Shown piece after piece: positions 25,090 through 31,047 of a DNA stretch of 64,000 nt (its first letter is position 1; each line of letters begins with the position of its first letter). Position numbers and translations under genes: made by a program. The DNA lies in assembly GCA_003152075.1 (NCBI GenBank), contig PLZG01000098.1:124001-188000 (forward strand). The letters run 5' to 3'. Origin of the DNA: a candidate division FCPU426 bacterium. Its GTDB lineage: Bacteria; Oederibacteriota; Muellerivitia; Muellerivitales; Muellerivitaceae. Below the pieces are notes generated by a model. That model was given only the letters and a program-made list of their open reading frames with translations, did no database searches and was not told the origin of the DNA.

Positions 25090-26349
25090 TTGAAATCCAA
25101 AAAAATTATTGGCTTATTGTTTGCTCTTACGGTTGTGATAGCCTTTATCAACGCTTGCGGAAGCAATCCAACCTCTCCGGCTGGGCCAACACCAACGCCG
25201 GTTCCACCCACCGCTACTTGTGGAAACGCGACTGGTACTTGCACAGCCCCACCTACTTCAACGTTTACCACCACCGCCACCAATTCCCCAAGTGCCACTC
25301 CTTCGTCTACAGCGACCAACACACCCACTCCCACAGCATCAAGAACAGCCACCAACTCCCCCACCCCGTCACCGACGCCTACGGCGTCCTCTACAGCGAC
25401 TGTTACCCCTACCAACACGGCCACCAACACGGTTACTAACACGGCAACTAATACAGCAACCGACACGCCTTGCTCTTGCACCTCGACTCCAACCACTACC
25501 AATACTCCGACGAATACTCCTTCCAGTACGGCTACCAATTCGCCCAGCAACACTCCAACCGCTACTCCAACACTAACCGTTTTCGTATGCTACACTTTCG
25601 TTCCCACTAGTACTCCCACGACTACGGGTTATTCGCTCTCGGGCACCTTAACCTACTCACCGGGGGGAGTTTCCGCTTCTCATCCCATGGGAGTCCTTCT
25701 TCAGCCGGGCGGCGGCGGAAACTCTTTCACTAGCTTTGTAACGACAAGCCCTAATTCTTATAGCTTTACGGGAATGCCAACAGGAAGTTACTCGGTTATT
25801 ACCTGGTACAACACGGTGGGTGATGGCACGGCCCTTCCAATTCCCCATGTGGGGGATTACACTTTTATTTACAACATTGCTACCTGCATATTTAACAACG
25901 CGACTCCTTATACCATTAACACGGCTAATACTCTAAATCTCACGTTTACCAGCACCCATCAAGTCAATGGTATCGCGGGCACGGTAAGCTACACTGGTTC
26001 CCTAGGGTCGGTGAATTCTTGCAATAGTTTACACGTCATTCTTTTTCAACCGGGCACCTTTACCGCCCACAGCTGTACCGTGAACGGTACTCTTTGGGGT
26101 GACGGCTACCCAATAGTAGGAAATGGCGGCAGATATGACGCCTTGCCTTACTTATCGCCTAACGATATGTGCACGAGTTTTGCGGTGGATGCGTTGGCTT
26201 ACTACGATAGTCCGACAAGGACAACCTCTTGCAGCCCGGCCAATCACAGCGGTCCTTCAGTAGGAGATCCCTATGTTATTCTGTCGAGCGTGTCCACAAG
26301 CACCGCAGCTACCCATAATATTACCTTTGGAGATACCAATATTTGGTAA
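25090..26349 (+). CDS. Lipoprotein with Thr/Pro/Ser-rich stalk and two beta-rich domains
   Basis: 419 aa from TTG 25090, with GGGAGG 5 bases upstream. A signal peptide ends in a lipobox with Cys23 (FINAC), so it is lipid-anchored. Residues about 28-155 are a low-complexity stalk of Thr, Pro, Ser, Ala and Asn built from short motifs such as TATNTPTPT, as in extended, often glycosylated surface linkers. After it come two related beta-rich segments, one starting [12 protein letters not shown] and one [12 protein letters not shown], each followed by G-rich strands. This resembles tandem small beta-sandwich domains (carboxypeptidase-regulatory-like), by eye only. Function unknown. A strong terminator follows. 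Open frames on other strands here are shadows of the repeats. Confidence 0.8.
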
Positions 26350-26396: not shown

Positions 26397-26438
26397 ATTG
26401 TAGAATGAGCGCCGTATAAAAATCTCAAGGAGCGAGTG

Positions 26439-27260
26439 ATGAAAAAGACTTTAATGTTTGTGGGAGTTTTCCTGTTTTTGGTCGGCGTTCAAATGAGCCT
26501 GGCGGATACGGCCTCTTCCAGCAGTTCCAGCGTCAGCCCGGCGTCCACACCCAGCTCCAAGACCAAGCATAGTAAAAAGAGTTCCAAAAAGAGCACGGCC
26601 CAACCCACAGGAACCCCGACTCCGTCCATCTCTCCGACGGTGAGCCCCATCAGCAAAACCACGGCGATCAAGACCATCAGCCTGCCTACGGCCATTCCGA
26701 CCAAGGCTCCGATGAACGCCATTACCAGCACCAAGATCTACGACCGCCTGAACATGCCCGGGGATTTACGCAGAGTCCTTTCCCTGGCCTCCAAAACCTT
26801 AGACCCCTCCTCCAAGCACGGCCGTACCCTTTTCCTTGCCCTTGAGAAGGTTTCCGCAAGCAAGGAAGATGTCGACCGGAAGGGTTCCTACGCGAGGGTT
26901 AACATTGAGAACCTGGAATTCGGCGGACCCAAGAACCCTTGGATCCTCGTAACTGGAACGGTTTCCGAGCAAAAGGGCGGCGATGTGAAGGTGGGGGATT
27001 CCATCGCTTTGGCCATGGATTTCAAGGATATCAAGATCGACTACGAGGGAACAAAGCTGGGTCAGATTCAAAAGGGAAACGATATTGCCGGGCAGGTTTA
27101 TGAGCAGCTCAATAGCCACAGTTCCTACCAATTGGTGATCAGGGCCGATGACCAGGTGAAAGACCAGAAATACCAGGATGAAACCCCGGCTTATCTAGCC
27201 AAAGCCAAAGACGGATACGCGATTTTGGACTTCCCCAATTCCCGTGAGGCTTCCCATTAA
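26439..27260 (+). CDS. Secreted Ser/Thr/Lys-rich protein, duplicate A
   Basis: 273 aa, not recognised. ATG 26439 has AAGGAG 7 bases upstream. Residues 1-23 are a signal peptide (ending SLADT). Residues about 24-95 are a low-complexity Ser/Thr/Pro/Lys linker with a Lys-rich cluster (SKKSSKKS). The rest (about 100-273) looks like one folded domain starting KIYDRLNMPGDLRRVLSLA and containing VKVGDSIALAMDFKDI. A near-copy without gaps lies 2015 bases downstream at 28454-29275 (about 16 of 273 residues differ by my alignment). Each copy is followed at once by a TraF-like barrel gene, so the secreted protein and barrel probably act together at the envelope. Confidence 0.8.
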   Translation: MKKTLMFVGVFLFLVGVQMSLADTASSSSSSVSPASTPSSKTKHSKKSSKKSTAQPTGTPTPSISPTVSPISKTTAIKTISLPTAIPTKAPMNAITSTKIYDRLNMPGDLRRVLSLASKTLDPSSKHGRTLFLALEKVSASKEDVDRKGSYARVNIENLEFGGPKNPWILVTGTVSEQKGGDVKVGDSIALAMDFKDIKIDYEGTKLGQIQKGNDIAGQVYEQLNSHSSYQLVIRADDQVKDQKYQDETPAYLAKAKDGYAILDFPNSREASH

Positions 27261-27283
27261 TCCATTCCCTCAAGGAGTCCCAT

Positions 27284-28360
27284 ATGCGCGTAATTAAAAT
27301 GAGATTTTTCAAACGGTTCTTGTTAGCCATCCTGGCCATGCCGGGTCTTTCCCTGGCCGTGGGTTTAAATAATCCGCCCGCGCCCCTAAGCGGGGAAGCG
27401 TTGGGGATGGGGGAAGCGGTGGCGGCTGACGGCAATGTTTATAACGGCACAGCCTTCAACCCCGCGCTCTTGGCCAACGCACCCTATTTGGGAGAAATTG
27501 GGCTTGGTTTTAACGCCTCCAACAGTATTTTCGGAATCAGCGATTACCTGTCAAGCTCTTCCAATTCTGGTTCATCCTCCAGTCTTCCCGCCAAGACCGT
27601 TGGATTGGGGGCGGGGTTCAATATCGCCTTGAAGTTCGACGATCACTGGGGTTTCCAGATTTACTACAACTCCCATGTGCTTCTTCAATTGGCTGCTCCG
27701 GTTACGATTGAAACTATAACCGGGCCCGCTTACTTCGACACTGTAGCCATGGTGACTTACAACATCGCCCCGCTGGAAGATGAAACGCCATTAACGGTCG
27801 GCGTTAATTTAAAGGTTGTCGACCACCGTGTCGGCATAATCAACACATCCGGAAGCCCAGGCGATTTATCCGGCTTCCAAAACCAACTGGACAAAGCTTT
27901 CAACCAGGATACCTTTCGCTGGGGGTTGGACCTGGGCCTGCTTTACGATTTTCCGGAAGAACATGTGGCCTTTGGCCTATCGGCGTTGGACCTTCTCCAC
28001 TCCGCTGGAACCATCGACAACAATGTGGGCGACGCGCTTTATGGCGTGAACCTGGACCCCGCCCCCGTGGTGGTGAAGTTTGGGGTTTCCTGGCATCCCA
28101 TTAAACCCTTTGTCTTGAACGCGGATTTGGATGATCTTTTATCCAGCACTTCCTATTACTCAGGTCAGAGTTTTGGTAACCACGTAAAGTTGGGACTCTC
28201 TTATGACCTTTTGGGAATTTTGATCATCAGAGGCGGTTATTCCAACGGGAATCCCAGCTTTGGCGGGGGAGTACCCTTTTTGGGGATCAACTACGCCTAT
28301 GCGGTGGATGACGTAAACCAGATTTACACCCATTACCTGATTTTCAAAGCGGATATGTGA
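27284..28360 (+). CDS. TraF-like outer-membrane barrel protein, short form
   Basis: 358 aa from ATG 27284, with AAGGAG 6 bases upstream. The signal peptide ends LSLAVGLNN. The mature start LGMGEAVAADGNVYNGTAFN followed by PALLANAP resembles the N-terminus of TraF-like (PF13729-type) outer-membrane barrels, where an early A-ADD-x-A-x-x-x-NPA block is common. The remainder alternates polar and apolar residues and ends in a run with a terminal aromatic/apolar strand (LIFKADM). It is a paralogue of 29299-30789 (shared FDDHWGFQ, DTFRWGLDLG, SWHP, GGYSNGN/GGFSNGN, YAYAVDD). It lacks two long helical insertions present in that copy. Function in this organism unknown. Confidence 0.75.
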   Translation: MRVIKMRFFKRFLLAILAMPGLSLAVGLNNPPAPLSGEALGMGEAVAADGNVYNGTAFNPALLANAPYLGEIGLGFNASNSIFGISDYLSSSSNSGSSSSLPAKTVGLGAGFNIALKFDDHWGFQIYYNSHVLLQLAAPVTIETITGPAYFDTVAMVTYNIAPLEDETPLTVGVNLKVVDHRVGIINTSGSPGDLSGFQNQLDKAFNQDTFRWGLDLGLLYDFPEEHVAFGLSALDLLHSAGTIDNNVGDALYGVNLDPAPVVVKFGVSWHPIKPFVLNADLDDLLSSTSYYSGQSFGNHVKLGLSYDLLGILIIRGGYSNGNPSFGGGVPFLGINYAYAVDDVNQIYTHYLIFKADM

Positions 28361-28453
28361 TTTCTGCGGGAACTGGGTTTGGTTGGGTGTAACAGGCTAT
28401 AGGATTGGCCAATTTTAAAAAGTTGTTTGATTAATAATCTCAAGGAGCGAGTG

Positions 28454-29275
28454 ATGAAAAAGACTTTAATGTTTGTGGGAGTTTTCCTGTTTTTGGCTGG
28501 CGTTCAAATGAGCCTGGCGGATACGGCCTCTTCCAGCATTTCCAGCGTCAGCCCGGCGTCCACACCCGGCCCCAAGACCAAGCATGGCAAAAAGAGTTCC
28601 AAAAAGAGCACGGCCCAACCCACAGGAACCCCGACTCCGTCCATCTCTCCGACGGTGAGCCCCTCCATTAAAACCACGGCGGTTAAGACTATCAGCATGC
28701 CTACGGCCATTCCGACCAAGGCTCCTATGAGCGCCATTACCAGCTCCAAGATCTATGACCGCCTGAACATGCCCGGGGATTTACGCAGAGTCCTTTCCCT
28801 GGCCGCCAAAACCTTAGACCCTTCCTCCAAGCGCGGCCGCACCCTATTCCTCGCCCTTGAGAAGGTTTCCGCAAACAAAGAGGACGTTGACAGGAAAGGT
28901 TCCTACGCGAGGGTTAACATTGAGAACCTGGAATTCGGCGGACCCAAGAACCCATGGATCCTCGTAACTGGCACGGTTTCCGAGCAAAAGGGTGGCGACG
29001 TCAAGGTTGGGGATTCCATCGCACTAGCGGTTGATTTCAAGGATATCAAGATCGACTACGAGGGGACCAAGCTGGGTCAGATTCAAAAGGGTAACGATAT
29101 CGCCGGGCAGGTTTATGAGCAGCTCAATAGCCATGGTTCCTACCAATTGGTGATCAGGGCCGATGACCAGGTGAAAGACCAGAAATACCAGGATGAAACC
29201 CCGGCCTACCTGGCCAAGGCGAAAGACGGATACGCGATTTTGGATTTCCCCAATTCCCGTGAGGCTTCCCATTGA
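28454..29275 (+). CDS. Secreted Ser/Thr/Lys-rich protein, duplicate B
   Basis: 273 aa, nearly identical to the protein at 26439-27260 and alignable without gaps over its whole length and over the ribosome-site region (CTCAAGGAGCGAGTG in both). ATG 28454 is chosen by that match. Changes fall mostly in the Ser/Thr/Lys linker (for example GP for SS, SI for IS); the second half is almost unchanged. Synonymous differences also exist but are few, implying a recent duplication or ongoing gene conversion. The stop lies 23 bases before the start of the long-form barrel. Function unknown. Confidence 0.8.
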   Translation: MKKTLMFVGVFLFLAGVQMSLADTASSSISSVSPASTPGPKTKHGKKSSKKSTAQPTGTPTPSISPTVSPSIKTTAVKTISMPTAIPTKAPMSAITSSKIYDRLNMPGDLRRVLSLAAKTLDPSSKRGRTLFLALEKVSANKEDVDRKGSYARVNIENLEFGGPKNPWILVTGTVSEQKGGDVKVGDSIALAVDFKDIKIDYEGTKLGQIQKGNDIAGQVYEQLNSHGSYQLVIRADDQVKDQKYQDETPAYLAKAKDGYAILDFPNSREASH

Positions 29276-29298
29276 CCCCCAGTTTAGGAGGATTCAAC

Positions 29299-30789
29299 AT
29301 GCGAAATTTTTACAAAGCCATTGGTAGGTTTCTATATATCTGGGGGATTTTAATCCTTCCCTCTTTTGCCGGGGCAATGGGCCTCAACAACTCACCGGTT
29401 CCATTCAATGTGGCGGCAAAAGGCACGGGGGACGCGGTTGCGGCCGATGGAACCCTTTTTAACGCCACGGCCTACAACCCCGCCCTTCTAGCCAACGCGC
29501 CGCATTTTGGGGAATTTACCTTTGGTTTAAGCCTTTCCAACGACATTTTTACCATGGCGAATTACCTGACCAATAACAGCAACATTAACAACCTGCAAAA
29601 TTCTTTACAAAACGCGAGTTCCTCGATGAATGACATCACTCAAGGTTTGAACCAGGTAACGCCCAACGTTTCGCAGGTCAACCAGGGGATCGACGGCCTT
29701 CAAAAGGCCGTCAATAACCTTCAAACAGCAGCCGCCACCCTCACGAATCGTTCCATTCAATTGGGGGTTGGGTTAAACATTTCGATGAAATTTGACGATC
29801 ATTGGGGTTTCCAGGTTTACAACAATTCCCATGGAGTTTTGCAAGTCACCCGGGGAGGCCTGGTTAATGACATCGAGAACTTGTCGGCCCTGCCCACGTT
29901 GCAAGGGTCAACCCCCGCAGATGTCTACAATGCCGCCAACGCCTATTTCGTGGATATGAAAAAGGTTCTCCAAACCGCTTTCCCTTCCCAAACCACTACG
30001 CTGGGAAACGCAGTGACGGCCTTGCAAGGCAATCAAACCTCCGCTGGCGTCAGCCAATTCGCCACCACCCTCTCCAATATCAGTTGGGGAAACCAGACGA
30101 CCTTACAAAATACTCTTCTGAACAATGTAGCCAATGTTACCGCTTTGGTTTATGTCGATACGGTGGGCATGGTCACCTATAGCCTCAACCCCCTGGAAGC
30201 GGAAATACCCTTGACCGTCGGCGCTAACTTCAAGGTGGTCAACCGCCACATTGGGTATGCCTATAGTTCCTGGTTGAGCCAGCAAGATCTCACCAATACC
30301 TCCGGCATCACCGACCAAATCAAAAACGACTTCACCCAAAACACTTTCAGATGGGGATTGGACTTGGGGGCTCTTTACGAATTTGAGGAAATCAAGCTAA
30401 CGGTGGGGGCCTCGGTGGAGGACCTCATCCACTCAACCGGGAACATCAATGCCGCCGCAACAGACCCCCTTTACGGAATTGTCACCGACTCGGCTCCTAC
30501 CGTGATAAGAATCGGGGCGTCTTGGCATCCTCTGCATCAAGTCAGCTTGAACGCGGATATGGACGACTTGCTCTCAAACTCTTCCACTTACCAGGGTTTG
30601 GACCTATTTTCCCACGCGAAAATCGGGGCCTCTTACAACTTGGGTATCCTGCAATTGAGGGGCGGTTTTTCGAATGGCAACCTAGCCGGTGGTTTTGGAA
30701 TCGCCTTTTTGGGATTGGATTACGCCTACGCGGTGGACGATTTGACCCAAAGCTATAATCATTACATTAGCTTTAAGGCGACCTTTTAA
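29299..30789 (+). CDS. TraF-like outer-membrane barrel protein, long form with helical insertions
   Basis: 496 aa from ATG 29299, with AGGAGG 7 bases upstream; an in-frame start at 29272 is rejected because it overlaps the previous gene and breaks the signal peptide. Residues 1-29 form a signal peptide (ending FAGAMGLNN). It shares the TraF-like start GTGDAVAADGTLFNATAYN and PALLANAP with the short paralogue. Two insertions set it apart: a Gln/Asn/Leu-rich helical segment around residues 95-152 (coiled-coil-like) and a second of about 90 residues (around 190-280) with Asn/Thr/Leu-rich helices. The C-terminal barrel strands (GGFSNGN, YAYAVDD, FKATF) end with Phe, as outer-membrane barrels usually do. 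Confidence 0.77.
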   Translation: MRNFYKAIGRFLYIWGILILPSFAGAMGLNNSPVPFNVAAKGTGDAVAADGTLFNATAYNPALLANAPHFGEFTFGLSLSNDIFTMANYLTNNSNINNLQNSLQNASSSMNDITQGLNQVTPNVSQVNQGIDGLQKAVNNLQTAAATLTNRSIQLGVGLNISMKFDDHWGFQVYNNSHGVLQVTRGGLVNDIENLSALPTLQGSTPADVYNAANAYFVDMKKVLQTAFPSQTTTLGNAVTALQGNQTSAGVSQFATTLSNISWGNQTTLQNTLLNNVANVTALVYVDTVGMVTYSLNPLEAEIPLTVGANFKVVNRHIGYAYSSWLSQQDLTNTSGITDQIKNDFTQNTFRWGLDLGALYEFEEIKLTVGASVEDLIHSTGNINAAATDPLYGIVTDSAPTVIRIGASWHPLHQVSLNADMDDLLSNSSTYQGLDLFSHAKIGASYNLGILQLRGGFSNGNLAGGFGIAFLGLDYAYAVDDLTQSYNHYISFKATF

Positions 30790-30970
30790 TCGACGGACAT
30801 CACCATTCTTGAAAAGCCCAACTTTTCTGAATAAACTACAGCCCTTCCTTTTGATCAATCCGTTGGCTTGATTAATGACCTTGGATATTTACCCGTCAAC
30901 CTTTGGGTTGAGGGTCAAATGCCAAGCCTATTTTTAGAGCAAGGCTTTGGCTTGATTGTTTATTGATCTT
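30790..30970. other. Intergenic region before tRNA-Val with imperfect hairpins
   Basis: 181 bases without a gene. It holds CAACC-TTT-GGTTG (about 30898-30910) and a longer imperfect stem, GCCAAGCC ... GGCTTTGGC (about 30921-30953), followed by a T-rich stretch, which may end the barrel transcript. The words CCTTGGATATTTA and TCTTGGACATTTA recur, the second being the tRNA 5' end, but no second tRNA can be folded. Confidence 0.35.
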
Positions 30971-31047
30971 GGACATTTAGCTCAGTTGGTTAGAGCGTCG
31001 CGTTCACATCGCGAAGGTCACTGGTTCAAATCCAGTAATGTCCACCA
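30971..31047 (+). tRNA. tRNA-Val (anticodon CAC), CCA encoded
   Basis: 77 bases. Acceptor stem GGACATT pairs with AATGTCC, followed by A and an encoded CCA. D arm TAGCTCAGTTGGTTAGA and T arm CTGGTTCAAATCCAG are standard. The anticodon stem GTCGCG/CGCGA encloses loop TTCACAT, giving anticodon CAC, which reads the Val codon GUG. Confidence 0.97.

Follow-up and report, generated by a model that had tools for sequence, protein, structure and literature searches.

Twenty-six long-lasting cases of concerted evolution have been described in prokaryotes, including genes of ammonia oxidation (PMC6053082). In these published cases, the members of a complex or pathway were mostly homogenised together, and low synonymous divergence served as the criterion that separates conversion from purifying selection (PMC6053082). 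Here we describe a tandem duplication of a two-gene unit in which the copies of the first gene (S1 and S2) are nearly identical, while those of the second (B1 and B2) are far diverged. A first-pass annotation of this DNA had proposed that the module is an old duplication whose first gene was later homogenised or copied again. Our synonymous divergence estimates, the comparison with single-copy relatives and the trees all support this proposal.

The tandem modules and their proteins

The window is a stretch of 64,000 bases (G000:C13:124001-188000) from the nearly complete genome of a candidate division FCPU426 bacterium (4.1 Mb, 114 contigs; G000). It was compared with a genome of the same genus (G001), two genomes of the sister genus (G002 and G006) and others of the phylum. 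S1-B1-S2-B2 are consecutive genes on the + strand, flanked by a lipoprotein-like gene and a tRNA gene. The features are as follows.

25090-26349, + strand: Thr/Pro-rich lipoprotein-like gene, the module's upstream flank in G000, G002 and G006, which also flanks the empty site in G001
26421-26438, + strand: 18 bases matching 28436-28453 (AATCTCAAGGAGCGAGTG), which contain the ribosome-binding site and mark how far the homogenised block reaches upstream (direct comparison)
26439-27260, + strand: S1, predicted secreted protein of 273 aa (ORF; orthologues in L034 and L035)
26439-26672, + strand: S1 codons 1-78, with 0/40 four-fold sites changed relative to S2, yet 8 residues changed (changepoint permutation)
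27284-28360, + strand: B1, predicted FadL/TraF_2-like outer-membrane barrel of 358 aa, the derived copy
28436-28453, + strand: second copy of the 18-base identical stretch, matching 26421-26438 (direct comparison)
28454-29275, + strand: S2, the other copy of the secreted protein, with 94% identity to S1 (ORF, alignment)
29299-30789, + strand: B2, predicted FadL/TraF_2-like barrel of 496 aa with helical inserts, the slower copy with the ancestral architecture
30971-31047, + strand: tRNA-Val (cac), which is conserved and adjoins the module, or the empty site, on the downstream side

The spacer between S and B is 23 bases in both units, and the S copies lie in direct orientation about 2 kb apart. 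A genome-wide search of the window genome showed that neither S nor the B1/B2 module has a third copy, and a scan of the genome_contigs set with S found no relatives. Promoter and terminator scanning gave no more sites than shuffled sequence. A promoter-like string (GGTTAAACGGATATAATTCG) is conserved 5' of S in G002 and G006 (L034:6600-6905, L035:6100-6200) and is not kept 5' of S1 or S2. Directly 5' of the tRNA-Val gene, positions 30845-30970 of the window hold an imperfect repeat (GGCTTGATTAATGACCTTGGATATTTA and GGCTTGATTGTTTATTGATCTTGGACATTTA).

S consists of a predicted signal peptide (residues ~1-22) with a conserved L-A ahead of the likely cleavage site, a linker rich in Ser, Thr, Pro and Lys (~23-95), and a C-terminal alpha+beta domain (~96-273) that carries an invariant DYEGTKLG...KGNDIA motif. 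No family or fold could be assigned to it: Pfam and NCBIfam searches gave no match, a structure model of S built from four sequences reached a pLDDT of 44 with no structure match at E <0.001, and a PDB sequence search with the profiles of S and B returned no meaningful match. Since S and B are always adjacent in all three genomes that bear S, S is likely to be the partner of B in the periplasm or at the surface.

B is best read as a predicted outer-membrane channel of the FadL/TraF_2 type. The best structure matches of the B2 model (pLDDT 66) are FadL, TodX and OmpG, at E ~1e-5 with TM-scores of only ~0.3, and residues 1-59 of the model, the would-be hatch, have a pLDDT <50. In Pfam searches, the B orthologues of G004 and G003 scored 42.4 and 31.9 bits against TraF_2 (PF13729, cut-off 25) and that of G002 scored 24.6, just below the cut-off; B1 and B2 themselves gave no PF13729 match. 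The N-terminal NPA-containing segment of B (YNPALLANAP) is conserved, and an NPA motif in this position is a hallmark of FadL.

Unequal divergence of the two genes

The first-pass annotation had described S1 and S2 as a gap-free match of 822 bases with 16 of 273 residues changed and an identical ribosome-site region. Realignment reproduced these figures, and the 18 bases before the ATG match exactly. Of the 822 bases, 57 are changed, 37 of these being third positions of codons, and unbroken identity persists over stretches of 75, 70, 61 and 56 bases. Nucleotide identity along the modules falls steeply at the limits of this near-identical block, which lie 18 bases 5' of the ATG and at the stop codon; outside them it is near chance (15/40 upstream, 16/40 downstream). 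By the NG86 method, S1 and S2 have a dN of 0.028 and a dS of 0.24, with 20/125 four-fold sites changed. They form a clade with support 100/100 and are 94% identical, versus ~42-46% for S against its orthologues in G002 and G006. In codons 96-273, dN/dS is ~0.05 (0.016/0.335), and the C-terminal domain of S is thus under purifying selection.

The barrels had been called clearly related and highly diverged, and this description holds: they share 51% identity over 352 aligned residues and 60% at the nucleotide level. Their divergence (NG86) amounts to a dN of 0.40 and a saturated dS of ~2.1, with 47/84 four-fold sites changed, and the longest exact run common to both is 13 bases. Synonymous divergence of S is therefore nowhere near as high as that of the barrels (0.24 versus ~2.1). 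Judged by identity, the barrel pair and the genus split are of similar age (51% versus 47-49% across the split). In the barrel tree, B1 and B2 are grouped with weak support (62/56), and alternative trees that put either copy closer to the sister genus were not rejected (p-AU 0.15 and 0.34), so that the module duplication would date from about the split between the genus and its sister genus.

The two barrels have not evolved alike. B1 has a branch length of 0.75 versus 0.30 for B2, and the Tajima test with five outgroups showed it to be faster (p = 0.001-0.09). It also lacks ~134 residues in three stretches, corresponding to residues 96-141, 184-210 and 215-275 of B2; the B2 model shows these stretches as largely helical, and the five other barrels keep them. 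Because B1 combines the longer branch with the absence of inserts that other members keep, it is the derived barrel and B2 the ancestral form.

The sister genus provides a control for evolutionary rate. G002 and G006 each carry a single S-B module at a syntenic site (L034, L035), with the lipoprotein gene upstream and tRNA-Val and SRAP downstream. Between these genomes, S is 60% identical with a dS of 1.05 and B is 62% identical with a dS of 1.24; their tree distances are 0.547 and 0.540, respectively. Since S and B diverge equally here, S is neither slow nor codon-constrained, and its rate is that of B at both protein and synonymous sites. Between genera, S is only ~45% identical. Within the window genome, the tree distance is 0.048 for the S pair and 1.04 for the B pair, which makes the S pair ~20-fold closer.

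The site is also recognisable in G001, the only congener among the genomes compared. It has the same flanks, with a gap of just 216 bases between the lipoprotein gene and tRNA-Val (L046:10656-10871), and neither S nor B was found anywhere in this genome. Because the module exists in the sister genus, its absence from G001 is most simply read as loss. Orthologues of the flanking genes in G000 and G001 are saturated, with a dS of at least 1.56, and the last homogenisation of S therefore came long after these two lineages of the genus had separated. The lipoprotein-like gene at 25090-26349 evolves very fast, with 51% identity within the genus and 37% to the sister genus, and its position is kept in G000, G001, G002 and G006.

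In a profile search of 45 genomes of the phylum, full-length S was present only in G000, G002 and G006, and no other match extended beyond the N-terminal region of low complexity or the C-terminal domain's edge. The collections searched hold no second genome with two S copies. G003, G004 and G005 each have one B without S, adjoining a carbonic anhydrase gene, a PtsI-like gene or both, and B is therefore not always dependent on S. This setting is a second, different conserved neighbourhood for the barrel family: at L036:6452-8642, L037:2425-3873 and L038:6197-8336, in three other genera, a lone barrel lies near PtsI-like genes, with carbonic anhydrase in two of the three.

Conversion, re-copying and other explanations

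S equals B in rate among the relatives but is ~20-fold closer in the window genome, and protein-level selection alone is therefore excluded as the cause. Well after the duplication of the module, S was either homogenised or copied a second time. The distribution of changes within the gene bears on which of the two took place. No four-fold site differs between S1 and S2 in codons 1-78 (0/40), versus 20/85 afterwards, with a changepoint at codon 79 (permutation p = 0.0008). Over all third positions the mosaic is weaker, at 4/78 versus 33/195 (p = about 0.01; 0.012), and codons 1-78 are mostly low-complexity linker. Residue changes run the opposite way, with 10 in codons 1-95 and 6 in codons 96-273, as expected because the linker is loosely constrained and the C-terminal domain well constrained. 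As far as four-fold sites and third positions go, to which the claim is limited, codons 1-78 are probably the most recently homogenised stretch of S. These codons hold 8 changed residues and lack any purely synonymous change, which resembles positive selection; since several of them carry two changes that include third positions, we do not claim it.

The mosaic speaks for two or more segmental events and so for concerted evolution by gene conversion. Single copying of S should have left even synonymous divergence along the gene, and because of the internal mosaic we lean towards repeated conversion over a single re-copying. With no close relative carrying two copies in the collections, the one sign of recurrence is this internal mosaic.

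Based on these observations, we give a probability of about 60% to a history in which the module was duplicated in tandem, the barrels diverged and the S copies were kept alike by segmental gene conversion. A two-gene unit, encoding the secreted S and the FadL-like outer-membrane barrel B, would have been duplicated at about the time the genus left its sister genus. B2 would have retained the ancestral form, whereas B1 would have lost its helical inserts and evolved faster, until the barrels had no recombination-competent stretches in common; the loss of inserts may itself have hastened this escape. The S copies would have kept long identical stretches and continued to exchange by homologous recombination, which would account for their near-identity while flanks and barrels diverged. 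As the S copies still match exactly over stretches as long as 75 bases and the barrels over 13 at most, S can presumably keep converting and B cannot. Selection probably preserves the uniformity of S, so that one S protein would be supplied in adequate dose to both barrels or for a common function. The possibility raised by the first-pass annotation, that S might have to fit both barrels, is plausible. A more tentative and rather doubtful view is that selection holds a shared secreted subunit uniform, through recurrent conversion limited to S, while the barrels specialise, which would make the locus a two-component outer-membrane unit. If true, two diverging channels would have a single interchangeable partner, against the published pattern of jointly homogenised complex subunits.

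The strongest competitor is a one-off event, in which S and its ribosome site were copied once, long after the barrels had diverged, either to a place in front of the other barrel or in place of a degenerate S there. Such a copy would leave what is seen, an S with low dS in a block whose sharp limits enclose just the gene and 18 bases. It also predicts even synonymous divergence, however, and the counts at four-fold sites (0/40 versus 20/85) do not bear this out; moreover, the insertion would have had to land precisely 5' of a barrel, and the equal 23-base spacers fit duplication of the whole module better. We regard this event as possible but rather doubtful. It is improbable that one S-B unit was recombined in from another strain or species with a similar S and a different, ancient barrel allele, which would make the units tandem alleles and not paralogues. 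The B1/B2 sister relation is not firm in the tree, and the dS of S (0.24-0.36) falls within the range expected for closely related species, but the 45 genomes searched in the phylum yielded no donor, and genus-level allelic divergence in the barrel would be needed beside a nearly constant S.

An assembly artefact or strain chimera is very unlikely even in a draft of 114 contigs, since the 57 differences are scattered, the longest exact repeat (75 bases) is shorter than common read lengths, each unit is complete with a barrel of its own, and the outer flanks show synteny with relatives. Extreme purifying selection acting alone since the module duplication, to which the low dN/dS of codons 96-273 would be congenial, is rejected by the synonymous counts and has next to no chance of being right, given that S1/S2 divergence is low at synonymous sites too (dS 0.24) and that S keeps pace with B in the G002/G006 comparison (60%, dS 1.05) and is only ~45% identical between genera.

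Comparison with known systems

Like FadL/TodX and the TraF_2/PorV-like barrels (PF13729), B has a signal peptide, an N-terminal NPA-containing segment and a predicted transmembrane barrel; unlike them, every member except B1 has large helical inserts, and sequence identity to FadL is ~10%.

With respect to their evolution, S1 and S2 resemble a known kind, bacterial concerted evolution by gene conversion, to which they would add a further case: the paralogues are closer than the orthologues, dS is low, and the copies are more alike than the age of the duplication would lead one to expect. As in the cases of PMC6053082, the paralogues are alike at synonymous and nonsynonymous sites while their surroundings have diverged. 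Those cases are lasting, whereas the present one is known from a single genome, and here one gene of a two-gene unit was homogenised and its neighbour was not. The locus offers a testable exception to the joint homogenisation of co-functioning genes. It is also a natural experiment, in which one duplication has left adjacent gene pairs with very different apparent ages and two single-copy relatives supply the rate control; a duplication date taken from one gene of a unit may err by more than an order of magnitude. In Helicobacter pylori, the bab and hom outer-membrane paralogues are likewise reported to show segmental conversion, restricted to a portion of a surface-protein locus (PMC2795765, PMC4552749). 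In that species, conversion acts on the genes of the outer-membrane proteins, whereas here the barrels escape and it is their secreted neighbour that would be converted.
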